Source: a virus. From it: a stretch of 31,394 nucleotides of DNA. The DNA lies in the IMG/VR virus record IMGVR_UViG_3300028557_000131, positions 1 through 31,394 of that record, one strand, 5' to 3'. The notes beneath the pieces were generated by a model. That model saw only the letters and a program-made list of their open reading frames with translations, had not been told where the DNA came from and searched no databases. The stretch's first letter is position 1. The number at the start of each line of letters is the position of its first letter. Shown one piece after another: positions 2,790 to 24,095 of this stretch. Both the position numbers and the translations under genes were made by a program.

Positions 2790-3887
2790 ATGTATAAATT
2801 AAATAAGTATAATTTTTTAGAAAAATTTAAAGAAAAACACGGTAATAAGTATAATTATGACAGTGTTGTGTATAAAAATAATAGTACTAAAGTCAAAATA
2901 GAATGTATAGTACATGGTATATTTGAACAAGCTCCAAAGGATCATTTTAAGGGTCAGACTTGTGCAAAATGTTATCACGATAGTATGAAATTGACGAAAG
3001 ATAAATTTATTGAGAAGGCGATAAAGATACATGTCGATAAATATATTTATGATGATATAAATTATATAGACAGTCGAACTAAAATTATTATAAAATGTAA
3101 ATTACATGGTGAATTTGCTCAGAATCCAAATAACCATTTGAATGGTAATGGTTGTTCTAAGTGTTCTGGTACAAATAAATATAGTAATTTGGATTTTATA
3201 AAAATGTCAAAAGAAATTCATGGTGATAAATATTGCTATGATAAATCTGTTTATAAAAATGCAAATAGTAGAGTTGTTATTATATGTAGTAAACATGGTG
3301 AGTTCGTACAAAGAGCAAGTAGTCATTTACAAGGAAATTCTTGTATGAAGTGTGTATTTGAGGCAAAAAGATTATGTACTGATGACTTTATAAAAATGTC
3401 TAAAAAATTACACGGTGATAGATATAATTATGATTCTGTTAGTTATGTACTCTATAATACACCAGTAAAGATAAAGTGTCCAGAACATGGTTTTTTTAAT
3501 AAAAAACCTAGTTCACATTTGAATGGATATGGATGTAAAAAATGTTTTATTTCAAAAGGTGAATTAAAAATTTCTAAAATATTAGATAATTATAAAGTAA
3601 AATATGAATCACAATACGCTTTCAATGATTTAAAATATATAAACAACTTATTTTTTGACTTTGTTATATTTGATGAATCTAATAATATAAAATGTTTGTT
3701 GGAGTTCAATGGAGAACAACATTATAAATTTAGTAAACTAATGCATACAGATGAAATCGGTTTTGAAATACATAAAAAGAGAGATGAATTGAAATTTAAC
3801 TATTGTTTTGATAATAATATAAATCTTCATATAATAAGATATGATGAAGATATAGATGAAAAGATGAATAATATTTTTAATATATAG
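2790..3887 (+). CDS. Homing-type endonuclease with four zinc-ribbon repeats
   Basis: 365 residues. There are four tandem modules of about 64 residues, each with C-x2-H, exactly 15 residues, then C-x2-C: C39/H42/C58/C61, C103/H106/C122/C125, C166/H169/C185/C188, C230/H233/C249/C252. Each carries 'KYxYD', 'HGxF' and 'HLxGxxC' signatures of the DUF723-like family. Residues 256-365 look like a PD-(D/E)xK/Vsr-type nuclease: D290 in 'FFDFVIF', E305 in 'LLEFNGEQHY', then D332 and K335. The repeats probably bind DNA and the C-terminus cuts it, as in free-standing phage homing nucleases. Its stop is 3 bases before the next ATG. No TATATA element precedes it, unlike most neighbours, which fits a later insertion. 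Confidence 0.75.
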   Translation: MYKLNKYNFLEKFKEKHGNKYNYDSVVYKNNSTKVKIECIVHGIFEQAPKDHFKGQTCAKCYHDSMKLTKDKFIEKAIKIHVDKYIYDDINYIDSRTKIIIKCKLHGEFAQNPNNHLNGNGCSKCSGTNKYSNLDFIKMSKEIHGDKYCYDKSVYKNANSRVVIICSKHGEFVQRASSHLQGNSCMKCVFEAKRLCTDDFIKMSKKLHGDRYNYDSVSYVLYNTPVKIKCPEHGFFNKKPSSHLNGYGCKKCFISKGELKISKILDNYKVKYESQYAFNDLKYINNLFFDFVIFDESNNIKCLLEFNGEQHYKFSKLMHTDEIGFEIHKKRDELKFNYCFDNNINLHIIRYDEDIDEKMNNIFNI

Positions 3888-3890
3888 TTA

Positions 3891-4589
3891 ATGAAATTAA
3901 AAATTTTAAAATTTTCACAATTTTCAAAAGTGTTTGAAACATCAGAATTTAATTTACAACGACTTAATAGTGATTCTGTTCAGGCATCAGTACATGTTGA
4001 TGATCCTAGCTTATCAATTAATGCATTTGATAAACACGAAGATACTATTAGACAAGCAATATCTCAAATTGGTCAGATAAGTAAGGCACTTCAACACACA
4101 ACATCATATAGATCTTTAAAATCTAAAATGTCTCTAAGTGAGCAAGACTTACAAGATTTAACAATTATTAAAATTGTTAAAAATGTAGGTTTTAATTATG
4201 ATATTTATATTAAATTTAAAATATCTGATGAAGAATATTGGGGAGTTATTAAAAGTATTAACTTTGAACCTGAAGTTAGATCTGAAGTATTCAAAGATGA
4301 AGAATTATTACAAACCAAAGAATGGAATATTAAGACTAAAGGTCTTATACTAAAATCAATAAAATCTTGGCTTAAACCACAGTTTGGATTTTTTAAACTA
4401 ATTAAAGATGAGATTCAATGTTTTTCAAACATAAGTGGGAAATTACTAATTCTGCCAAAAGATTCTGTAGTAGAAGTATTAAAATCTTATGATGATAAAA
4501 TCATTTTTAAATTTAAAGATGATCAATACACAATAACTGGTGATAATTTCTTTTATTTCAACTGGTGGTTTGAACCTGTTCAGGATTAA
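3891..4589 (+). CDS. Hypothetical protein with capsid-targeting-like N-terminus
   Basis: 232 residues. It starts 'MKLKILKFSQFSKVFETSEF', an extended form of the shared peptide with a possible prohead-protease site after VFE. Residues 95-232 are mixed beta/alpha with conserved-looking aromatic patches ('EEYWGVIKSINFEPE', 'FFYFNWWFEP' at the C-terminus). No family is recognised. TATATA at 3881-3886 overlaps the nuclease stop codon and sits 4 bases before this ATG, so the nuclease appears to have landed just upstream without removing the element. It converges on the fibre gene with a 4-base tail overlap. Confidence 0.65.
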   Translation: MKLKILKFSQFSKVFETSEFNLQRLNSDSVQASVHVDDPSLSINAFDKHEDTIRQAISQIGQISKALQHTTSYRSLKSKMSLSEQDLQDLTIIKIVKNVGFNYDIYIKFKISDEEYWGVIKSINFEPEVRSEVFKDEELLQTKEWNIKTKGLILKSIKSWLKPQFGFFKLIKDEIQCFSNISGKLLILPKDSVVEVLKSYDDKIIFKFKDDQYTITGDNFFYFNWWFEPVQD

Positions 4590-6099: not shown

Positions 6100-7653
6100 T
6101 TAAAAATTAAATTTATAATTTTGAGAAGTTGGCATAGTCGATAACTGAGTCTTCTTATATATGTTATATAGACCCTGCCAATTACCGGCTGTCGGATCAG
6201 TTACAGAAACATTTTGAGAAAAAGTCCAAGAAGCTCCTACACCACTTAAAGATTCAGAAAATCCATTATCATCAAGAATTTCAGACAATAATCCATAATT
6301 TGATGGATACATAAAATATAAATATTGAGGAGTGGTTGGATTTGAAAGAGGAATAGATTGACTACCGTAACTATTAATAACCTTAGTATATGAAGAAAGA
6401 ATAAAGGGAATATTTCCTGATGTTAATGGATAATCAGTTGTGTTAAAACTATAAATATATGGATAAACAAACTCAACAGTTTGACTAGCTGTAAAAATAT
6501 AGGTTCCATCACTTGGTATAACCGAAAATGTAAATACACCAAATTGTGTATCATCGCCGATATCGGAATTTGGCAAATTATAGGTAAAAGGATAAGTATT
6601 AGTTATTAACCCTGGGCCACCAAATGTAGCACCTCCAGCATTAATTGGATAGCTACCATCTGGCTTTTGAGCTTTTAAACTCACCAAAGTAATATCATTT
6701 GTTCTCTTTGTAAGAGAATAGGAAACAACAACTGGTGTAGTGCCTGAAATATGGTTTCTTTCCAATGTTCTATTTTGAGACAAAGGTGTTGTCACATTCA
6801 ACAATGCGAATGGTCCCAATGTAGGATAAAGTATTTGATCGAAGAGTAATGAGAATGCAAGACTACTAAATGTTGTACCGACTGTTACACCACCAATACT
6901 TTGTATTATAGGATCTGGGTTTGTGTATTCTAATGGAACGTTATTTACTTTTACCGGAGTACCATAAATATTAGTTTCAAATCCTAAAGTTCCTAGTTCA
7001 TCACCAACACTCGTATAAGTTTTCAGCTCTAGATTATTAGGAGAACTCATAACTAAGAATAGGTCGCCTCCAATAGAAGGTGAAGGTGATAATATAGAAG
7101 CAGCAACTTGAGCAGTAGATGGCCAATATAAATCATTAATTACAACACTAGCTGAAGAACCACTTTGAATAGTTATTGTACCATAAGTTGCTGGATTTAT
7201 TAAATTAAGTGATATATAAGGATTACCACCAGAAACTTGAGTAGATTGAATATAAGGTGCAAATCCAAATAATGATGTATCAGTACCAGCTAAGAATCCC
7301 ATTCTAAAATACTGAAAAGGATTAGTATCTGATTTTGTATTGTAAAGAAAAACATCAGTCTGACTAGTTAATAATGATGATGACATTATATCAGATCCAG
7401 ATATTTGTTTTTTACCAAAAAATATCTTTTTATCTTTTATTTCATCTCTTGTGAATCCAATATATTCACTACCACCAACACTTGAATATTTAAATACGTT
7501 ACTTTCCCAAGCTGATAAAACAGCATCACGAACATCACGAGGTGTAATTTCTTTAGCAGTATTATCCGGAAGTAATTGTAAAACATCTTGCAAATCTGTT
7601 TTATTTTGAGCATAGTAAGTTGTTGCTGGATATTCACTAAATGTATAAGCCAT
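6100..7653 (-). CDS. Tail/baseplate structural protein, fibre-associated
   Basis: 517 residues, low in charge and rich in Ser/Thr/Asn/Tyr. Residues 18-50 hold 'LQLLPDNTAKEITPRDVRDA', a segment I associate with N-termini of Bacteroidota phage fibre or baseplate proteins. Residues about 250-420 contain repeated beta-sandwich-like segments ('SYSLTKRTNDITLVSLKAQK', 'YIFTASQTVEFVYPYIY') resembling Ig-like folds. The C-terminus ends in aromatic beta strands. It sits directly upstream of the second fibre-like gene. TATATATA lies 21 bases before the ATG, within the loop of a hairpin that ends the preceding gene. The exact part of the tail cannot be assigned. Confidence 0.65.
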   Translation of the reverse strand: MAYTFSEYPATTYYAQNKTDLQDVLQLLPDNTAKEITPRDVRDAVLSAWESNVFKYSSVGGSEYIGFTRDEIKDKKIFFGKKQISGSDIMSSSLLTSQTDVFLYNTKSDTNPFQYFRMGFLAGTDTSLFGFAPYIQSTQVSGGNPYISLNLINPATYGTITIQSGSSASVVINDLYWPSTAQVAASILSPSPSIGGDLFLVMSSPNNLELKTYTSVGDELGTLGFETNIYGTPVKVNNVPLEYTNPDPIIQSIGGVTVGTTFSSLAFSLLFDQILYPTLGPFALLNVTTPLSQNRTLERNHISGTTPVVVSYSLTKRTNDITLVSLKAQKPDGSYPINAGGATFGGPGLITNTYPFTYNLPNSDIGDDTQFGVFTFSVIPSDGTYIFTASQTVEFVYPYIYSFNTTDYPLTSGNIPFILSSYTKVINSYGSQSIPLSNPTTPQYLYFMYPSNYGLLSEILDDNGFSESLSGVGASWTFSQNVSVTDPTAGNWQGLYNIYKKTQLSTMPTSQNYKFNF

Positions 7654-7661
7654 TTAATTTA

Positions 7662-7690
7662 AAAAAGTTTTAAGTATATATAAACTTTTT
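7662..7690 (-). terminator. Hairpin between 7697 and 7653 genes, enclosing a TATATATA
   Basis: AAAAAGTTT (minus strand) pairs with AAACTTTTT across an 11-base loop, giving a 9-bp stem ending in T5. It would stop the 8098-7697 transcript. The loop contains TATATATA (7675-7682), 21 bases before the ATG at 7653, so stop and restart signals overlap. Confidence 0.5.
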
Positions 7691-7696
7691 ATAATC

Positions 7697-8098
7697 TTAT
7701 TCGAATAAATAATCAATTTTAATTAAATCCTTAATCTTAGCTGTTTTTAAACCTAAATTATCAAAAGATATTCTATCAAAAGGTATTTCATTTTCAATTT
7801 CATATAGATCACTCATCTCTTTAGAGAATTTATCAACATCTTTTAGTAGAACAGTATCAGGAATCACCTGACCATTTTCATCCTTAGCTGATATTGGATT
7901 ACCATCCTCATCTATTTGTATCCATTTATTATAAATTTTCTTTTCTAATGAAAGTTTATCTTCAACTATTGGTGATATAAATTTAATAATTCTGGTCAAT
8001 TTAAAAGCTGCTGAAGCATCTATATCTTGGTCTAAAAGGTTATTAATAGCTTCAAGAGATTCATTTGATAATTGTGAGTTTTTTATTTTGAAAGACAT
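7697..8098 (-). CDS. Hypothetical protein (possibly DUF1617-like)
   Basis: 133 residues, acidic and helical. Helix-rich segments ('SLEAINNLLDQDIDASAAFK', 'LTRIIKFISPIVEDKLSLEK') are followed by 'DEDGNPISAKDENGQVIPD', a polar hairpin-like insert. The layout recalls small phage DUF1617-type proteins, but I am not certain. TATATA (8116-8121) lies 17 bases upstream, overlapping the end of the methyltransferase gene. It is probably transcribed separately from the fibre pair because a hairpin follows it. Confidence 0.55.
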   Translation of the reverse strand: MSFKIKNSQLSNESLEAINNLLDQDIDASAAFKLTRIIKFISPIVEDKLSLEKKIYNKWIQIDEDGNPISAKDENGQVIPDTVLLKDVDKFSKEMSDLYEIENEIPFDRISFDNLGLKTAKIKDLIKIDYLFE

Positions 8099-11655: not shown

Positions 11656-12624
11656 ATGATAAACTATGATGATGTTATAAAATTGCCGTTAAAGGTTAAA
11701 ATTTCAAAATTTAAAGATAAAAATTTAAAGATTGAACTAATAAAAAGAACTGAATTTCTATCTGAATCAGCAAGTATTGGTGAGAGAGTATATTGTATAG
11801 ATAATAATATAAATAAAATAATTTTATGTTATTGTGGAAATCCTGTTAAATATTTAAAATATAGCGAGGGATATTCAAAAAGATGTTCTAGGAAATGTTC
11901 CTGGAAAGATCCAAATGTAGTAGAAAAGAGAAAAAAAACTTGCTTAGAAAAATATGGAGTTGATAGTTTTACTAAAACCAATGAGTATTTAGTTAAAACT
12001 AAAGAAACTAATAATGAAAAATATGGAACTGATTTTTATCTACAATCTAATGACATAAAAAATAAAACTATAAAATTTAATTTAGATAAGTATGGTGTAA
12101 ATCACCATATGAAATCAAAAGAATTTATTGATAAATTCAAAAAAATGAATATTGATAAATTTGGAGTAGATAATGTATCAAAGTTAGATTATATTAAAGA
12201 GAAAAAAAGAAATACATTTCAAAGAAATTATGGAATTAATCACATTTTTAGCTCAAATGAAATAAAAGGTGAATTTTTCAAAGAAAAATATGGATATAAT
12301 CCATATATACCTATAAAGGATAAAAGCGAATTTGAAATTTATAAAAATGAAGTATGGAGATTAACATATAGAGTTAAAAAAATACTTATAGAAAAATGGA
12401 ATGGATACGATTACTACGATGGTGAATATATATTACAAAACTATTTCATAGATTATAATGATAATGACTATCCATCAATAGATCATAAAATATCAGTATA
12501 TTATGGATTCATAAATAAAATTGACCCAATTGATATAGGAAATATAGATAATCTCTGTATAACAAAAAGGTCAATTAATAAGAAAAAGGGAATTTTATCT
12601 GAAAATGATTTTAAATACAAATAG
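11656..12624 (+). CDS. HNH-type homing endonuclease with 23-residue repeats
   Basis: 322 residues. A Cys cluster C58-x-C60 ... C77-x3-C81 ('CYCGNP' and 'RCSRKCSW') probably binds zinc. Next come six modules centred on K-Y-G at 99, 122, 145, 168 (KFG), 191 (NYG) and 211; the first five are exactly 23 residues apart. This is a pattern of phage homing nucleases in which each module contacts DNA. The C-terminus 'PSIDHKISVYYGF' (273-285) with 'NIDNLCITKRSINKKKG' (298 on) matches an HNH-like active site (D276-H277 ... N299). The gene sits between the SAM methyltransferase and the convergent Ro60 gene (14-base overlap). Confidence 0.7.
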   Translation: MINYDDVIKLPLKVKISKFKDKNLKIELIKRTEFLSESASIGERVYCIDNNINKIILCYCGNPVKYLKYSEGYSKRCSRKCSWKDPNVVEKRKKTCLEKYGVDSFTKTNEYLVKTKETNNEKYGTDFYLQSNDIKNKTIKFNLDKYGVNHHMKSKEFIDKFKKMNIDKFGVDNVSKLDYIKEKKRNTFQRNYGINHIFSSNEIKGEFFKEKYGYNPYIPIKDKSEFEIYKNEVWRLTYRVKKILIEKWNGYDYYDGEYILQNYFIDYNDNDYPSIDHKISVYYGFINKIDPIDIGNIDNLCITKRSINKKKGILSENDFKYK

Positions 12625-14059
12625 AATTTATTTCATTCAACAAATGATTCTTATCTTTCTTTAGAACCTCTATTATATCAAAAACTTTTTCTGAAAATCC
12701 AGATAAACAATAAACTTGTGATTCCGGTAATTGTAGACTCCCGTATCCTGCGAGATCCCAGGAAAATACATGAGGATTACAATTAAACTTCTTTTTATAA
12801 AGATTAAATTCAGATGCTGGTGTTGTATTACCAATCCATCCTTGAAGGTCACTAAGTATTATAATATTATCGTATTTCTTATTAGCCTTTAAGAAAATAT
12901 CTTTAAAATTTGTTCCACCACCAGAGAAACGGAATCCATTTCTAATAGTAAGAATTGAATCCATTGGATTATATGCCTTGTAATTAGCGCTTGTAGCAAA
13001 TGTCATAACATCACAGTTATTAGCCTTTGATAACATAGCTCCAAACAAAGATGCTATCTCAGATGGTCTTCCACTCATAGATCCTGATACATCAAGAACT
13101 ACTAAAGTATCACCACTAAACTTAGGAACGTTGATTGCAGATATATCTAATGCTTGATGTAATGCAGTCATTACCATTCTAACATCAGATGATGAACCTA
13201 ACTTAGAAATCTCTTCATAAGCAGTTGAAAACCTAAATGGAAGAATACGACTTGATTTAATCAAATTCTCATCAACTAACATATCACACGCAAGACCAAG
13301 AAATTGTGGTGCTTGATTAATGATATTTCTCAAGTTTCTAAGAAGTGCAAAATATCCAATCTTTTTTGTTGTAAGAAGTTCACCCCATGCATCTGATTTT
13401 AACTGTGATAATTCCTCAATATTAGAAGCATCTTGACCAGCCTTTGATAATTTCGACTCCCAAGTATCAGTTGATTTTAAATCACCCAAAACAAGTTTAG
13501 AAAGTGCTTCCTTATTTGAAGGAGTTGGAATTGGATGAACCAGATTCACAATATCAATAAGTTTAACTTCTTTATTCTCACTCTTATATTTAGCAAGTTG
13601 GTAACTATCAAATCGATTAAAAGCTGAAGCAAATCCTTTTTTCAAGGAGTTTGGAAACTTTGGCTTGATCTTATCTGTCTTATTATCAAGATAATAGGAC
13701 ATAATTTCAGTCATATCATCAACACGAACAACTACTTTATCGTAAAAATCTTTTGACCATTCTTGACCTGAAACTCTTGAAGTTAATTCACCAGCAAGTG
13801 CGTGTGTGATACTTCTCATACCAAAATTATCACGAGCAAATATTGCAGCCTTAGCAGCAAATTTAGGATCAACTTTATCTAAAATAGTTTTAAGTCTATC
13901 TAGTGTAACATTCGATGAACGATAAAATTGATCATCTACAAATGAGTTTAATAAAATAGAAATCAATTCTAATTCATGTGATTGAGTATAAGCCTGACCA
14001 CCGGCTAAATTAGTGGTTAAAGTCTTTGGTTCTTTTAAGGTTAGGTTAAATTTTGACAT
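12611..14059 (-). CDS. rsr: Ro60 / TROVE-domain RNA-binding protein (Rsr-like)
   Basis: 482 residues, about the size of bacterial Rsr. Residues 1-300 are the alpha-helical TROVE ring, with the family opening 'NLAGGQAYTQSHELELISIL' and 'FAAKAAIFARDNFGMRSITH'. Residues 315-470 are a von Willebrand A domain with a complete MIDAS metal site: D323-x-S325-x-S327 ('DVSGSMSG'), T383 in 'GGTNF' and D404 in 'LSDLQ'. Ro60 proteins bind Y RNAs on the outer ring surface and misfolded RNA ends in the central hole, often working with 3' exonucleases in RNA decay or refolding. The gene starts 21 bases after a strong terminator that ends a structured RNA on the same strand, which may be its Y RNA partner. No TATATA is close to the start, so read-through from the RNA is likely. 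The 3' end overlaps the nuclease gene by 14 bases. Confidence 0.92.
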   Translation of the reverse strand: MSKFNLTLKEPKTLTTNLAGGQAYTQSHELELISILLNSFVDDQFYRSSNVTLDRLKTILDKVDPKFAAKAAIFARDNFGMRSITHALAGELTSRVSGQEWSKDFYDKVVVRVDDMTEIMSYYLDNKTDKIKPKFPNSLKKGFASAFNRFDSYQLAKYKSENKEVKLIDIVNLVHPIPTPSNKEALSKLVLGDLKSTDTWESKLSKAGQDASNIEELSQLKSDAWGELLTTKKIGYFALLRNLRNIINQAPQFLGLACDMLVDENLIKSSRILPFRFSTAYEEISKLGSSSDVRMVMTALHQALDISAINVPKFSGDTLVVLDVSGSMSGRPSEIASLFGAMLSKANNCDVMTFATSANYKAYNPMDSILTIRNGFRFSGGGTNFKDIFLKANKKYDNIIILSDLQGWIGNTTPASEFNLYKKKFNCNPHVFSWDLAGYGSLQLPESQVYCLSGFSEKVFDIIEVLKKDKNHLLNEINSICI

Positions 14060-14079
14060 AATTAAGTTTTTATTTTAAT

Positions 14080-14117
14080 AAAAAAGACCAGAAATAACTT
14101 TGTAGTTAAATCTGGCC
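14080..14117 (-). terminator. Strong rho-independent terminator upstream of Ro60 gene
   Basis: On the minus strand, GGCCAGA pairs with TCTGGTC (7 bp, one G-U); a second stem TAACT/AGTTA lies inside, separated by a TT/TT internal loop, and T6 follows. Together 12 bp. It ends the structured RNA 21 bases before the Ro60 start codon. Confidence 0.85.
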
Positions 14118-14396
14118 TTTCATATTAATGTAACAAACAAGTAAATCTAGACTGAGGTGTCGTCCGGACCTCATCTCGAGGTCAGGGACCGATATTCTTT
14201 AGGATTTATATCTTATCCTACTCTTTTATTTACAAGAAGTGGTAAATTCTTGTGACCATTAAGTGATCAAATCTACCCTTTTTAATTATTGTTACCAATA
14301 ATCCGATTGCTTGGATCAGCTTTCGGTCTTTCAGATAGTTATCGAAGTAACTCAATCTATCGCTATGTTTGTTTACACTTATATTAATAGACCAGA
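14111..14396. repeat. Interrupted inverted repeat, arms 29 and 31 bases
   Basis: Arms at 14111-14139 and 14366-14396 are complementary over about 27 positions, separated by 226 bases. They define the ends of the candidate RNA domain. Confidence 0.85.
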
Positions 14397-14438
14397 GATA
14401 ATTTATTAAGAGTATTTTTTTCATTGCCGAAGTAACTC
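14343..14438. repeat. 11-base direct repeat pair in the RNA leader
   Basis: CGAAGTAACTC occurs at 14343-14353 and again at 14428-14438, 85 bases apart. On the minus strand it reads GAGTTACTTCG. The first copy forms the loop side of a small hairpin; the second lies just upstream of the closing helix, within an 8-bp stem (minus TTGAGAGT/ACTCTTAA). Confidence 0.7.
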
Positions 14439-14548
14439 TCAAAATCACTACTGGATTATTTCTAATTGATTGTTTTTATTTTATATCCAAAAATTAAAAA
14501 GTTTAAATAATTTAAGATTAATATTATATATGATGTTAAAAAAATTAA
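14397..14548 (-). promoter_or_regulatory. AT-rich leader with possible promoter for the RNA
   Basis: This remaining part of the 509-base gap has no credible gene. On the minus strand a TATAAT hexamer is present at 14527-14522 and could start the RNA; no good -35 box is seen. A 72-codon frame at 14230-14448 has unconvincing composition and cuts across the RNA structure, so it is not called. Confidence 0.35.
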
Positions 14549-14569
14549 AAAAATCAAAGGTGGATTTTT
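14549..14569 (-). terminator. Terminator after membrane coiled-coil gene
   Basis: On the minus strand AAAAATC pairs with GATTTTT around a 7-base loop (CACCTTT), followed by T-rich sequence. It begins at the stop codon of the 16095-14569 gene and separates it from the RNA/Ro60 unit. Confidence 0.65.
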
Positions 14570-16095
14570 TATATATCCGCAGATGGAGGCCAACTACCAT
14601 TTATAGAATGTAATCTTTTTAATTTAACATTCAGACTTTCCCACTGTTTAATCTCACTATCAAGATTCACTAGTTCTTCTCTAACTTTTTCTAATTTATT
14701 TTCTCTATCCTTTAATTCATCTTCTCTAGATTCTAATCTAGCTGATAAATAATCCAAATCTTCTCTATCCTCTAACACCTTATTCTTAAAGTCATTAAAT
14801 TCCTTTCTTTCATCTTTCAAAACCTGAGAATCATTTTCTATTTTCTTTCTCTTATCTTCGAGTTTAGATTTATATTCTTCTTCTTCTTTCAATATTAATT
14901 CTCTATAATTGTCAGATTTTAAATTTAAATCTTTTTGTAAAGATTCTAATTCTATCTTTCTTTTTTCTAATTTATCTTTCTCCTCTTGTACATATGATTC
15001 AAAACTAGTTTCTTTTGTTTTAAAATTACGAGTTATCTCTTCAGCTTTATTTTTTAATTGATCATCCAAATCATTTATTTGATTTTCTCTATCATCTATT
15101 TCTTTTTCTCTAATAGATACTCTCTCCTTACTCTCCTTCTCAAGATTGGAAATGATTTCTAATGATTTTAATTCATTATCTTTGATCTCCTTTGATTTTG
15201 ATTCAAAATCTTTACTTAATTCATTAAATTCCTTTTCCCTTTCTTCAAACTCTTTAATTTTCAAATCAATTGTTTTACTTAATTCTAACTTTTCCTTTTC
15301 TTTATTCTTATCCCCGAAGATAACATTAGCACCTACAACAAGTGAAACTGCCAATGGATCAAATACTAACATAAGAGCAATAATAAACCAGTTAATAACC
15401 TGATCCATTGAACTACCTGTTAATTTAGCAATATATTTTAAAGGACCAATTTCACCCGCCAAATCAGTATTAGTTTCTAAATCTAATTTCTTTAAATCTA
15501 TCTTAGTAATAGAGTCGTTTAGTGCGGTTTCAGTTAGTAATATATCATCTCGTCTTTTTTGAGACGATTTGAGTTGTTCTTCATAAACTTTTCTATTAGC
15601 AGAGGATGATGTCGTAATAATATTACCCTTTTTATCTTTTGACTGAACAAAATTATTTGTAACACCTTTTGTCAATTCAGCAATATTTGAAGTAATTCGT
15701 TCTTTTTCAGATCTTGAATCATTTAATTGTGTTTGAAACATCTCACGTTTCACATCAAGAACTTTAACTTGTTTATCAATGTTCTCAACTTTATTAGCTG
15801 TTTCAGAATATGCCGATGAAAGGTATCCATAAATACCAGCAGATGTAATCATCATGAGAACAAATAGTGCAACGAAATAATAAAACTTTAATGCTTTATT
15901 TAATCTTCCCCAATATTGGTAAAGTAATGAAGCTAAAACTAATTTAGCAATCTCAAGTGATCCCATCATAATCATCACTTGTAAGCTAGCTCCAGAGAAC
16001 ATTTTACCGAGCCCTGTAACTGAGTAGAAGGCCGCTGATAATGAAACTGAAAGAGCAGAAACAACTACTAAATAAGGTAATATCTTTTTTTCCAT
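14569..16095 (-). CDS. Membrane protein with long cytoplasmic-type coiled coil
   Basis: 508 residues. Predicted membrane segments at about 6-26, 37-59, 71-92 and 233-260 are separated by a polar 140-residue loop. Residues 262-500 form an almost uninterrupted, Glu/Lys-rich coiled coil ('KIKEFEEREKEFNELSKDFE' style heptads). The N-terminal 'SVTGLGKMFSGAS' and 'GSLEIAKLVLASLLYQYW' lines recall membrane proteins seen in large marine phages, without a known function. It is not a tape measure protein by size or context. It could act at the host inner membrane. TATATA (16101-16106) lies 5 bases before the ATG. Confidence 0.75.
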   Translation of the reverse strand: MEKKILPYLVVVSALSVSLSAAFYSVTGLGKMFSGASLQVMIMMGSLEIAKLVLASLLYQYWGRLNKALKFYYFVALFVLMMITSAGIYGYLSSAYSETANKVENIDKQVKVLDVKREMFQTQLNDSRSEKERITSNIAELTKGVTNNFVQSKDKKGNIITTSSSANRKVYEEQLKSSQKRRDDILLTETALNDSITKIDLKKLDLETNTDLAGEIGPLKYIAKLTGSSMDQVINWFIIALMLVFDPLAVSLVVGANVIFGDKNKEKEKLELSKTIDLKIKEFEEREKEFNELSKDFESKSKEIKDNELKSLEIISNLEKESKERVSIREKEIDDRENQINDLDDQLKNKAEEITRNFKTKETSFESYVQEEKDKLEKRKIELESLQKDLNLKSDNYRELILKEEEEYKSKLEDKRKKIENDSQVLKDERKEFNDFKNKVLEDREDLDYLSARLESREDELKDRENKLEKVREELVNLDSEIKQWESLNVKLKRLHSINGSWPPSADI

Positions 16096-21031: not shown

Positions 21032-22195
21032 CTAAGAATCTAAAAATTGATCACTCTCCAGTGTCAAATAAGTAGAGTTTAAAGTCAATTTTATCTGGCT
21101 CTTTAAAAAGTCACCGTCTCTTTGTTTTAAAAGTTTAAATCTATACATATTTAAACGTTTCATTTCTTCAGTTCTAATAATAGCCCAGAAAGTATCCGCA
21201 GTCTCAGCAATCGCTTTACTCTCAGGAACACTTTCTAATGTTATATCAGATGCATTCCAAGCATCCTTAGCAACTTGAACCCCGGTAATAATCGGACATT
21301 TATATTTCGAACCTAAAGCTCTTAAACCTTCTGCTAAATATTTACCTTTTGTATAAAGGTTATCACTTGATCCTTTTGGAGCCGCTATCAATGTAATATA
21401 ATCAACAATGATTAAATCGAATTTAATTCCCTTTTTTTGACCTATCTTTTGGATATAGTTATCAAAGTCATTTATGTTAGTGGTCCCGGCCGCCCAAAAT
21501 TTGGTATAAATCTTACCAACCTTATTAGTAAATAAATCTCCACCTTCTTTCATCGAACCAAGTGATTTAATCTTCTTACGGATCAACTCAGTGTCCTTAC
21601 TAACAGTATCATAATCATTAATAGGAATTTTTAAACGCATCGCTCCCATTCTTTTAAGTACTTTACGCTCACTCATCTCAAGAGTCACATATAAAACATT
21701 ATAACCCATATCAGCAGATCTAACAGCAAAGTTCTGCATCCAAAGAGAGTTATGACTTAAAATATCATTAGTATAGTATTGTTTATTTGATCCGGTACCC
21801 AATTGTAAATCATACATATGTGATCTATTACCAGTTAATCCGAATTCAATTATCATTTCTGGACCATCCTTTGTCATTATAAAATCTCCTAATAATATAT
21901 TTTCACAATAAATCTCTGTAAGATCACACTTCTTTGAATATAGGTTAATATTATCACATCTGTATAAAAGATGTTTATCAGCACATATTAATTCCTTACC
22001 ACCTGATGTAAATATCCTCCACTCATCATATTCAATAGTTTTGCCTATACCCTCAATATCAATCCAACCATAAGGAGTTTCTACTTGCAAATTATTTACC
22101 TCATAAGCTTCTATAAACTTATCATATAAGGCAGTTTCATATTTACCCTCTAATAGGCTATCAGCCTCTATAAATTCAAATTCTAAATTATTCAT
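21032..22195 (-). CDS. Replicative helicase, C-terminal half fused to intein C-part
   Basis: 387 residues. Residues 1-149 are the C-terminal part of a split intein: 'VETPYGWIDIEGIGKT', the block-B-like 'GGKELICADKHLLY' with H75, and the terminal 'YYTNDILSHN' ending in H148-N149. Residue 150 is the +1 Ser. Residues 150-387 are the C-extein, the rest of a T4 gp41/DnaB-type RecA fold: 'SLWMQNFAVRSADMGYNVL', 'TLEMSERKV', Walker B 'FDLIIVDYITLI' (D265) and 'GVQVAKDAWNASDITLESVP'. Trans-splicing with the product of 23370-24095 would restore the P-loop and yield a helicase of about 442 residues (T4 gp41 is 475). The start overlaps the nuclease stop by 8 bases. Confidence 0.92.
   Translation of the reverse strand: MNNLEFEFIEADSLLEGKYETALYDKFIEAYEVNNLQVETPYGWIDIEGIGKTIEYDEWRIFTSGGKELICADKHLLYRCDNINLYSKKCDLTEIYCENILLGDFIMTKDGPEMIIEFGLTGNRSHMYDLQLGTGSNKQYYTNDILSHNSLWMQNFAVRSADMGYNVLYVTLEMSERKVLKRMGAMRLKIPINDYDTVSKDTELIRKKIKSLGSMKEGGDLFTNKVGKIYTKFWAAGTTNINDFDNYIQKIGQKKGIKFDLIIVDYITLIAAPKGSSDNLYTKGKYLAEGLRALGSKYKCPIITGVQVAKDAWNASDITLESVPESKAIAETADTFWAIIRTEEMKRLNMYRFKLLKQRDGDFLKSQIKLTLNSTYLTLESDQFLDS
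21749..22195 (-). other. Split intein, long C-terminal fragment (149 residues)
   Basis: It extends from the ATG to the Asn codon at 21751-21749; the next codon is Ser (C-extein +1). It contains block B (His75), block F-like 'MYDLQLGTGSNKQYYTND' and block G 'HN|S'. The length is unusual, since canonical IntC pieces are about 35-50 residues. Confidence 0.88.
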
Positions 22196-23348
22196 TAATA
22201 AATCTTATACATTTTTCTAAAGTTTGTTGTGGATATTTTCTATATTCTGAATCCCAAATAACTAATACTGAAAATCCTTCATTTTTAGCAAAATTTGTTT
22301 TCCTATTGTCCCTTTCCCAAATATCCTTAGCACTATATCCACTTTCCTTATGATATGGATGAGGTGTATCATTCTCATTATAAATATTTGGATTTGCATG
22401 ATATTGATCACCATTATATTCTATGATCTTTTTTCTAGATATATCAGTAAAATCATATAATAATACCGATTTATCTGATTTAATCAGATATTCTTTATTC
22501 TTTGTCCAAAAAAATACATTTTTCACTTCAGTTATATCATATTTGTTTAGTATTTCCATAAATAATATTTGACTAATTTTGGAATATCCACCCTTAATAT
22601 TACCATTTTCAGATAAAGATTTTTGCCATTTTACCTGTCTTTCTTGAAAAACAGCAACACCATCATTAACTCCATATTTCTCAATGCAAATTTTTCTAGA
22701 AAATCTATTTTGTATTTGAGATATTTTTTGTTTAGCTTCACTTTCCGAAAACCCTCTTTGAATATAATATTCAATTTTGGTTGGATATTTTGAAGCATAT
22801 TTTTCCGGATTTGATTTTAATTTTATAGATGTCTTTTCATGAATATCGATCATAACATTATTAACTTCTAATTCAGCTTCTTCTTTTGTTAAACCCTTAT
22901 TAATCCAAAATTCAATACAATTTCTACTTCTTTTTTTATCCCATGATGGATCATTTTTTCTTATCTCATTTTGAGTTTTAACTCTTTCTTTTAATTGTCT
23001 TATATTCTCTAATTCAAATAATTTTTGAGCATCTTCTCTACTACAAACATTACGATACATAAATCCCTCTACACTGTGTGATTTGAAAGATTTTTTCAGA
23101 CATTGTTTATCATTACATAGATTTCTATATCCTTTAGATATGGATATAAATTCCCCTATGTTTCCACAAAAAAAACAAGAAGAATCTCGATGATTAACAT
23201 ATAGATCATAATAATGCTTATGATCTATTTTAATAGTTTTAGTCACATAACAAGAAAGACCCTTAGAAGAATGAAATTTTCTATTTGTAATAGGACAATA
23301 AAATGGAAAATCTATATCTTTATATCTTTTTTTGGCATCACCATTCAT
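22188..23348 (-). CDS. Homing endonuclease nested in the split helicase
   Basis: 386 residues. A Cys cluster C58/C61 ... C78/C83 ('CFFCGN' and 'LCNDKQC') suggests a zinc finger. Residues about 219-232 carry a 'CIEKYGV' module like those in the 11656 nuclease. The C-terminal 120 residues match a Vsr-type nuclease: D299 in 'LLYDFTD', E310 and H317 in 'IIEYNGDQYHANP', D347 in 'WERDNRKTNFA' and 'VLVIWDSEYR'. In known fractured genes a Vsr-like nuclease sits between the two halves of a split-intein host gene and spreads the element, and the layout here is the same. It starts 21 bases after the N-half stop. TATATA (23364-23369) lies 15 bases upstream. Confidence 0.8.
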   Translation of the reverse strand: MNGDAKKRYKDIDFPFYCPITNRKFHSSKGLSCYVTKTIKIDHKHYYDLYVNHRDSSCFFCGNIGEFISISKGYRNLCNDKQCLKKSFKSHSVEGFMYRNVCSREDAQKLFELENIRQLKERVKTQNEIRKNDPSWDKKRSRNCIEFWINKGLTKEEAELEVNNVMIDIHEKTSIKLKSNPEKYASKYPTKIEYYIQRGFSESEAKQKISQIQNRFSRKICIEKYGVNDGVAVFQERQVKWQKSLSENGNIKGGYSKISQILFMEILNKYDITEVKNVFFWTKNKEYLIKSDKSVLLYDFTDISRKKIIEYNGDQYHANPNIYNENDTPHPYHKESGYSAKDIWERDNRKTNFAKNEGFSVLVIWDSEYRKYPQQTLEKCIRFINE

Positions 23349-23369
23349 ATATAGTTTTATTTTTATATA

Positions 23370-24095
23370 TTAAATGTCATCATCCCCCTTACTAACTTTG
23401 GTAAAAATTTTACCAATTTTTATAGATCTTTCTTCACAATTATCTATATTTCTTATATTTATATAACCATCATAAAAAAAACATTTACCATTATTGGTTT
23501 CTGCCATTATACAATTAAATGTACCAATATCCCAACCACCACCTAAAATGTGGTCGATTGTTTCAAATCCTGATTTAACTTTAAATCTTGAACTGTCTTG
23601 AATGTGCAATTCTGCTTCATCGAAATCAGAACCCATGTCATCATCGTCAACAAAACTAGTAGAAGACATATCATCAACTATTGCTCTTATTCTATTAGCA
23701 GCTTCTATAGCTGTATCAAAATCAGATATATTATCGAAGTTTCGTGTTTCATCAATAATATCTACTGTTCCAGTTTTAATTCGATTCGTTAAAACCCAAG
23801 CATTAAACTTAGGTTCAACAAAATTCTTTTCATCGTAGTCTTTTAAATTATCAGTAAGTAAAGATTTAAGAATTTCTTTTGTAATTATACCCTCCTTATC
23901 TTCTAAGGATACCATATCCAAGATCTGTCTTGGTGTTGGTATTTGAGCTTCTGAATTTTTGGTAATGTATTCTCGAATTATACCGAATACAAATTGAACT
24001 TCAGTGTTTCTAAAAAAATAGGGCCGTACAATTTCAAAATATTTCTTATTCTTTAAAATGTAATTAAAAAAGACCTTTTCCAGTGATGAGGTCAT
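23370..24095 (-). CDS. Replicative helicase, N-terminal half fused to intein N-part
   Basis: 241 residues. Residues 1-204 are the N-extein of a gp41/DnaB-type helicase: a helical N-terminal domain ('PTPRQILDMV', 'DFDTAIEAANRIRAIVDDMS') and the start of the RecA fold, 'GFETIDHILGGGWDIGTFNC', ending in the Walker A lead 'AETNNGK' (198-204). At residue 205 the sequence becomes an intein: 'CFFYDGYINIRN' with Cys1, then 'SIKIGKIFTKV', stopping after 37 intein residues. The missing P-loop Ser is supplied by the partner at 21032-22195. Alone this half cannot bind ATP. The gene is preceded by an ATATAT stretch about 10 bases upstream. Confidence 0.92.
   Translation of the reverse strand: MTSSLEKVFFNYILKNKKYFEIVRPYFFRNTEVQFVFGIIREYITKNSEAQIPTPRQILDMVSLEDKEGIITKEILKSLLTDNLKDYDEKNFVEPKFNAWVLTNRIKTGTVDIIDETRNFDNISDFDTAIEAANRIRAIVDDMSSTSFVDDDDMGSDFDEAELHIQDSSRFKVKSGFETIDHILGGGWDIGTFNCIMAETNNGKCFFYDGYINIRNIDNCEERSIKIGKIFTKVSKGDDDI
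23373..23483 (-). other. Split intein, short N-terminal fragment (37 residues)
   Basis: It begins at the Cys codon 23483-23481 directly after Walker A Gly-Lys and ends at the stop codon. It holds only the block A region, so the split falls much earlier than in canonical split inteins. Confidence 0.88.

Follow-up and report, generated by a model that had tools for sequence, protein, structure and literature searches.

Ro60 is also known as a target in human autoimmunity. The usual picture of a bacterial Y RNA is that of a single stem together with a tRNA mimic. Among the described forms, YrlA is 90-150 nt long and its tRNA-like domain tethers PNPase, an exoribonuclease (PMC8394870). The vertebrate Y RNAs hY1, hY3, hY4 and hY5 are RNA polymerase III transcripts of 83-112 nt, each with a single stem that carries a conserved bulged cytosine (PMC4030889). 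From phages, putative Y RNAs of Listeria phage CKA15 were proposed on the basis of transcript abundance and a nearby Rsr homologue, and Y RNAs have also been reported from mycobacteriophages (PMC12282133).

Here we describe a predicted noncoding RNA of 375 nt, lying just ahead of a phage Ro60 gene, which on sequence grounds is very probably a phage-encoded Y RNA with two tandem Ro60-binding-type stems and a structured effector domain. Like YrlA (RF02553; PMC8394870), it has a stem formed by 5′ and 3′ strands with the same conserved internal-loop elements, it adjoins a Ro60/Rsr gene and it holds an effector domain in the stem. Unlike YrlA, it has two tandem stems rather than one, its ~190-nt domain is not tRNA-like and it escapes the Rfam model. 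With the vertebrate Y RNAs it shares paired 5′ and 3′ ends and an interrupted stem, which is their Ro60 binding site (PMC4030889), but it differs from them in size, in its second stem and in having no Rfam match. The CKA15 and mycobacteriophage Y RNAs are likewise phage-encoded candidates near an Rsr gene, whereas neither a tandem stem nor a large non-tRNA domain is described for them in the available part of that article (PMC12282133). A literature search, which missed some key Y RNA papers, returned no description of this RNA family.

The locus and its relatives

The window, that is the whole stretch of DNA analysed (31,394 nt), is a 31-kb viral record. The features discussed below are as follows.

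12611..14059, minus strand: Ro60/TROVE protein, 482 aa (PF05731, structural match, MIDAS pattern)
14080..14454, minus strand: whole RNA of 375 nt, comprising module 1, module 2 with the effector domain, and the terminator (z = -7.0 for 14420-14080; kept 5′ of Ro60 in ~30 related phage loci)
14392..14454, minus strand: module 1, a Ro60-binding-type Y stem and complete hairpin, with closing CCAG/CUGG, internal loop UAGUGA x UUAUCU, inner helix and UUACUUCG in the loop (covariance model R1; covariation)
14343..14372, minus strand: module 2, 5′ strand, ACAAACA-U-AGCG-AUAGAUUGAG-UUACUUCG (descriptor common to module 1 and to stems of outsider loci; covariation of outer and inner helix)
14157..14342, minus strand: effector domain inside module 2, 186 nt, without tRNA-like features (no tRNA by ARAGORN, no Rfam match)
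14162..14189, minus strand: hairpin at the end of the effector domain (GUCC..GGAC), corresponding in position to Pd in subtype III (folded in each relative)
14133..14156, minus strand: module 2, 3′ strand, CUCAGUCUA-GAUUUACU-UGUUUGU, which pairs with the 5′ strand (double changes in 6/7 pairs of the outer helix)

A preliminary description of this DNA had called the neighbouring gene Ro60, and both sequence and predicted structure agree. The product matches the TROVE family (PF05731, E 2.6e-15), and its AlphaFold model (mean pLDDT 82) was matched by Foldseek to solved Ro60 structures at E 5.6e-17 to 1.3e-12, namely 9kop, 9l5y (Thermus phage phiLo), 1yvp (Ro autoantigen with RNAs), 2nvo (Deinococcus Rsr) and 9nen (human). 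The MIDAS-pattern residues D323, S325, S327, T383 and D404 are invariant in 25 relatives. Profile searches recovered ~30 loci whose Ro60 belongs to one clade with that of the window (67-92% identity), located on viral contigs of up to 476 kb and on the 635-kb phage genome LR745206. Nearly all of them carry a homologous RNA directly 5′ of Ro60. Among genome contigs, only one distant partial match was found to a bacterial or integrated homologue.

Two further observations concern interrupted genes. In L011, L012 and L013 (~3469-4150) the Ro60 gene is broken by ~690 bases with in-frame stops, probably an intron or a homing-endonuclease insertion. Elsewhere in the window (21032-24095, minus strand) a DnaB-like helicase is encoded as two halves. 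The first half stops after NNGK-C, the second starts after SHNS, and an endonuclease-like ORF of its own (22188-23348) lies in between; judged by eye, the arrangement resembles a split intein located at the P-loop.

Extent and fold of the RNA

The structure described earlier for this segment was borne out. The predicted folding energy of minus strand 14420-14080 is -95 kcal/mol, whereas 100 dinucleotide shuffles gave -61.2 +/- 4.8 and none equalled it (z = -7.0); the nested local hairpins are likewise predicted. The boundaries given in the preliminary description were too short: side-by-side reading of related loci places the start at ~14454 and not at 14396, ~58 nt further upstream, the former 5′ end having fallen inside module 1, a complete hairpin, on its 3′ strand. 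The 375 nt are counted from the first base of module 1 as far as the T-run. That the RNA is larger than known Y RNAs holds, and its size is accounted for by two tandem stems plus a large insert. A hairpin with a GTAA tetraloop, also pointed out before, is found in the window sequence but is not conserved, as the loop differs in the near relative L001.

Both modules follow one layout: an outer helix, 1 nt, AGUG or AGCG, ~10 nt ending in an inner helix, UUACUUCG and an insert, and on the 3′ side the returning strands with a U-rich connector, CU at the connector end and then the outer helix. The insert measures ~16-40 nt in module 1. Module 2 (14372-14133) encloses a structured domain of ~190 nt in the window, and its insert reaches ~270 nt in relatives.

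Compensatory changes, the check that had been proposed for this helix, are present in both stems across more than 20 related phages. In module 1 (24 sequences) the 14 pairs are 96.7% paired, 10 of them with changes on both sides, and all slid registers are far worse. Module 2 together with helix B:C, described below (23 sequences, 22 pairs), is 97.0% paired, a figure biased towards structure by an alignment of hand-cut blocks that left out the insert and was cut with structure in mind; double changes, which are less affected by this, occur in 11/22 pairs. The covariation scores were 0.492 against 0.157 +/- 0.022 in shuffles for module 1 and 0.254 against 0.155 +/- 0.009 for module 2 with B:C; because the aligned sequences are related, the shuffle counts are not to be read as probabilities. 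We also noted by eye that GAUAG in the 5′ strand of module 2 can pair with CUAUC soon after UUACUUCG in most relatives (window 14360-14335, minus strand), possibly a local alternative fold.

Y-type stems beside far-diverged Ro60 genes

The same stem layout is found beside the far-diverged Ro60 genes of csAssE-Sib, crAss001, Streptomyces phage GiJojo and Arthrobacter phage Atuin, and also beside diverged Ro60 genes in contigs L029-L031, L035, L037, L040 and L046. Across ten such outsider loci the motif core gave 40 matches on the Ro60 strand vs 4 on the other, a few cores being counted at two spacings. In these loci a tRNA, or a tRNA-like domain in permuted order, often makes up the insert. In L035 the Rfam YrlA model matched stem and insert over their full length (E 4e-8 within 501 bases, under the gathering score). 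Y-type stems moreover enclose tRNA-like sequences in the phage of L046 and in that of L002. Given the common layout, the tRNA-like inserts and the YrlA match on L035, the shared layout is most simply read as the Ro60-binding stem of prokaryotic Y RNAs.

We built a covariance model, R1, from nine Y-type stems of five outsider loci, crAss001 and Atuin among the sources, with zero members of the window's family, L035 excluded, and loops and connectors trimmed to equal length. Its best match in the window was module 1 (14454-14392; 32.4 bits, E 7.2e-6), the sole other match having an E of 0.041. Module 1 was also detected in nearly all family loci tested, R1 missing the near-identical L023 and L025, whose module 1 is divergent. 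Module 2 is too interrupted for R1 and is supported by motif, descriptor and covariation. Among held-out loci, R1 found stems near the Ro60 of cr111_1 and of a Xanthomonas phage. Some Ro60 phages gave no R1 match near Ro60, namely Gordonia phage Neville, Thermus phage phiLo, Streptomyces phage Frankenweenie and Brevundimonas phage Kikimora. The structure of the phiLo Ro60 dimer (9l5y) came out in 2025; as R1 finds no Y stem near this Ro60 (L075), a phiLo Y RNA, if there is any, has diverged.

Across 12 whole-genome records of up to 635 kb, the R1 matches lay just 5′ of Ro60 or in tRNA arrays, with the exception of the contig of L060, in which a TROVE gene was not found. Moreover, we gathered 80 viral contigs by sequence motif alone, a scan for 14 fixed bases that is largely chance and served purely as input to R1. 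R1 picked ten of them, seven of these new. TROVE is encoded in 5/7 of the new contigs that passed R1 vs 2/20 of the tested contigs that it rejected (one-sided Fisher p ~0.005).

The tRNA arrays merit separate mention. Two phages of the window's family have Y stems there (L087 8962-9027, which is LR745206.1 342,961-343,026, and L088 6511-6960 in the phage of L002). These are stand-alone hairpins between tRNA genes, and one in the phage of L002 encloses a tRNA-like sequence. Therefore, the window RNA need not be the sole Y RNA of such a phage. In L089 (reverse strand, IMGVR_UViG_3300008255_000097, ~163-180 kb) a tRNA array holds at least 8 Y-stem cores, several of which enclose permuted tRNA-like sequences with the T arm first and the D arm last; the same phage encodes Ro60.

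The effector domain and comparison with known families

The relatives fall into three subtypes by the insert of module 2, the window belonging to subtype I. In subtype III the helices Pa, Pb and Pd, with hand-picked arms, show compensatory changes, hairpin Pd being 98.8% paired. ARAGORN found no tRNA in the window, and the tRNA-like effector domain with D and T arms that defines YrlA is absent. The effector domain matches nothing known in Rfam.

None of the 4227 Rfam families matched the window at gathering level. YrlA (RF02553) and Y_RNA, the models singled out in the preliminary description, gave no match in 13900-14600 at E up to 10. With gathering and permissive thresholds, the window plus 16 related and outsider loci yielded nothing relevant for the family; sub-threshold YrlA matches among these 16 came from outsider loci only, and a separate RF02553 search left the window RNA unmatched. 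RF02553 matches under the cut-off also occurred in control genomes and so carry no information. A resemblance of CUGGUC to vertebrate Y RNAs had been offered as evidence and is not supported, since this segment changes with its partners, for example to CUGAUU in L010.

An identity with YrlA was rejected on three counts: the tRNA-like domain was tested and absent, the RNA stays under the Rfam cut-off, and it measures 375 nt vs 90-150 nt. The stem and the gene context thus argue for a Y RNA, and the absence of a tRNA-like domain against YrlA. The window RNA would then be a tandem Y RNA variant with a new, non-tRNA effector domain in three subtypes. Binding of Ro60 by its two tandem stems is predicted, being carried over from known Y RNAs.

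Terminator and alternative pairings

The structure is followed, as described before, by a terminator, with a hairpin and T-run ending at 14080. A simple terminator scan listed nothing at 14080-14120; it disallows internal mismatches such as the 2x2 one of the predicted stem. Four short segments around it can pair in more than one way.

14080..14120, minus strand: intrinsic-terminator-like hairpin and T-run (MFE fold; equivalent hairpin and T-run in family loci)
14451..14454, minus strand: segment A, CCAG, which closes module 1 with B (100% paired, 24 sequences)
14390..14395, minus strand: segment B, CUGGUC, which pairs with A or C (B:C 99.3% paired; switch in folds)
14112..14117, minus strand: segment C, GGCCAG, 5′ arm of the terminator, which pairs with B or D (B:C counts; folds)
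14086..14091, minus strand: segment D, CUGGUC, 3′ arm of the terminator (fold)

The helix 14396-14366 / 14139-14111 of the preliminary description is present, its outer end being B:C, which extends the helix of module 2. This outermost part (CUGGUC 14395-14390 / GGCCAG 14117-14112) competes with CCAG 14454-14451 and with CUGGUC 14091-14086 of the terminator, whereas ACAAACA/TGTTTGT (14372-14366 / 14139-14133), which closes the second domain, is uncontested. A:B, B:C and C:D are conserved and mutually exclusive helices, B:C being partly implied by C:D.

Protein-responsive transcription attenuators place mutually exclusive antiterminator and terminator pairings ahead of a gene whose product binds the leader. 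The window likewise has mutually exclusive pairings ahead of a gene whose product would bind the leader; it differs in that a Y RNA stem would serve for binding and in being known here from the pairings. The pattern is the signature of an attenuator, and one that senses Ro60 is plausible. With Ro60 plentiful, the protein would bind module 1, hold A:B and free C for D, and transcription would stop; with Ro60 scarce, B would pair with C and transcription would enter the Ro60 gene. Folding predicts the pairing switch in most loci tested, B pairing with A in 11/14 representative loci at full length and with C in 14/14 when D is left out. In L010, L011 and L045, B:C is kept through matching changes or is longer than D would call for. 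The T-run ends 20 nt before the Ro60 start, which leaves little room for another promoter. A sigma-70 promoter scan found 2 sites vs 4.5 expected and does not bear on this point.

It is nonetheless unlikely that the RNA is mainly a cis-acting leader of the Ro60 gene, with the stable RNA as a by-product. Since B resembles D, B:C partly follows from C:D, and few sequences show any variation in the CUGGUC-GACCAG core itself. In L060, module 1 and a terminator occur without module 2 and with no co-directional gene after them. Moreover, an effector domain this elaborate, and Y stems that stand alone in tRNA arrays, favour a trans-acting RNA. As to L060 itself, the RNA lies at 7616-7740 of a 32.8-kb contig that may be a fragment and in which no TROVE gene was detected.

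The attenuator and Y RNA readings are not mutually exclusive. We tentatively raise a two-in-one RNA, which we hold possible but doubtful, in which the first Ro60 stem is also the sensor of an attenuator, the level of Ro60 sets the ratio of Y RNA to Ro60 mRNA, and the non-tRNA domain of the second stem recruits a partner other than that of YrlA.

An unrelated structured RNA (a ribozyme, intron, riboswitch or other large phage noncoding RNA) placed upstream of Ro60 by chance would fit the large size, an effector domain without known relatives and the unmatched Rfam Y RNA families. This is very improbable, as 0/4227 Rfam families match at gathering level, R1, drawn from unrelated Ro60 phages, matches module 1 and predicts TROVE genes elsewhere, and the linkage to Ro60 recurs in ~30 loci. 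A short protein gene, such as the listed 72-aa ORF (14230-14448, GTG start), or an AT-rich spacer with incidental folding can be dismissed, because the window and its nearest relative differ in length in ways that shift the reading frame, substitutions keep base pairs, and z = -7.0. The Y RNA reading proposed in the beginning is therefore the one supported, by the TROVE neighbour, the R1 match to module 1 and covariation.

Proposed role and implications

By analogy with Y RNA biology, the stems of modules 1 and 2 would each dock one Ro60 ring on its outer face, giving two rings per RNA. Module 1 may be a simple stabilising or gating stem. Module 2 would present a partner-binding domain, as the tRNA-like domain of YrlA does for PNPase, or its effector domain may gate the ring. 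The resulting phage RNP might handle structured RNAs while the phage infects its host, and so take part in RNA turnover or repair. The terminator at 14120-14080 is compatible with expression as a stable noncoding RNA; lying between RNA and gene, it would keep the Y RNA in excess of Ro60 mRNA, and may itself be regulated through the A/B/C/D pairing switch.

If this reading is right, the stem that docks Ro60 is modular: it can occur twice, and it can carry a large domain of an altogether different kind, an arrangement that is conserved among phages whose genomes measure hundreds of kilobases. R1 finds Y-type stems missed by Rfam, some of them in phage tRNA arrays, where they lie between tRNA genes or surround them. 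The family would thereby offer a handle on two questions, namely the use that phages make of Ro60 and how the levels of Ro60 and Y RNA are matched.
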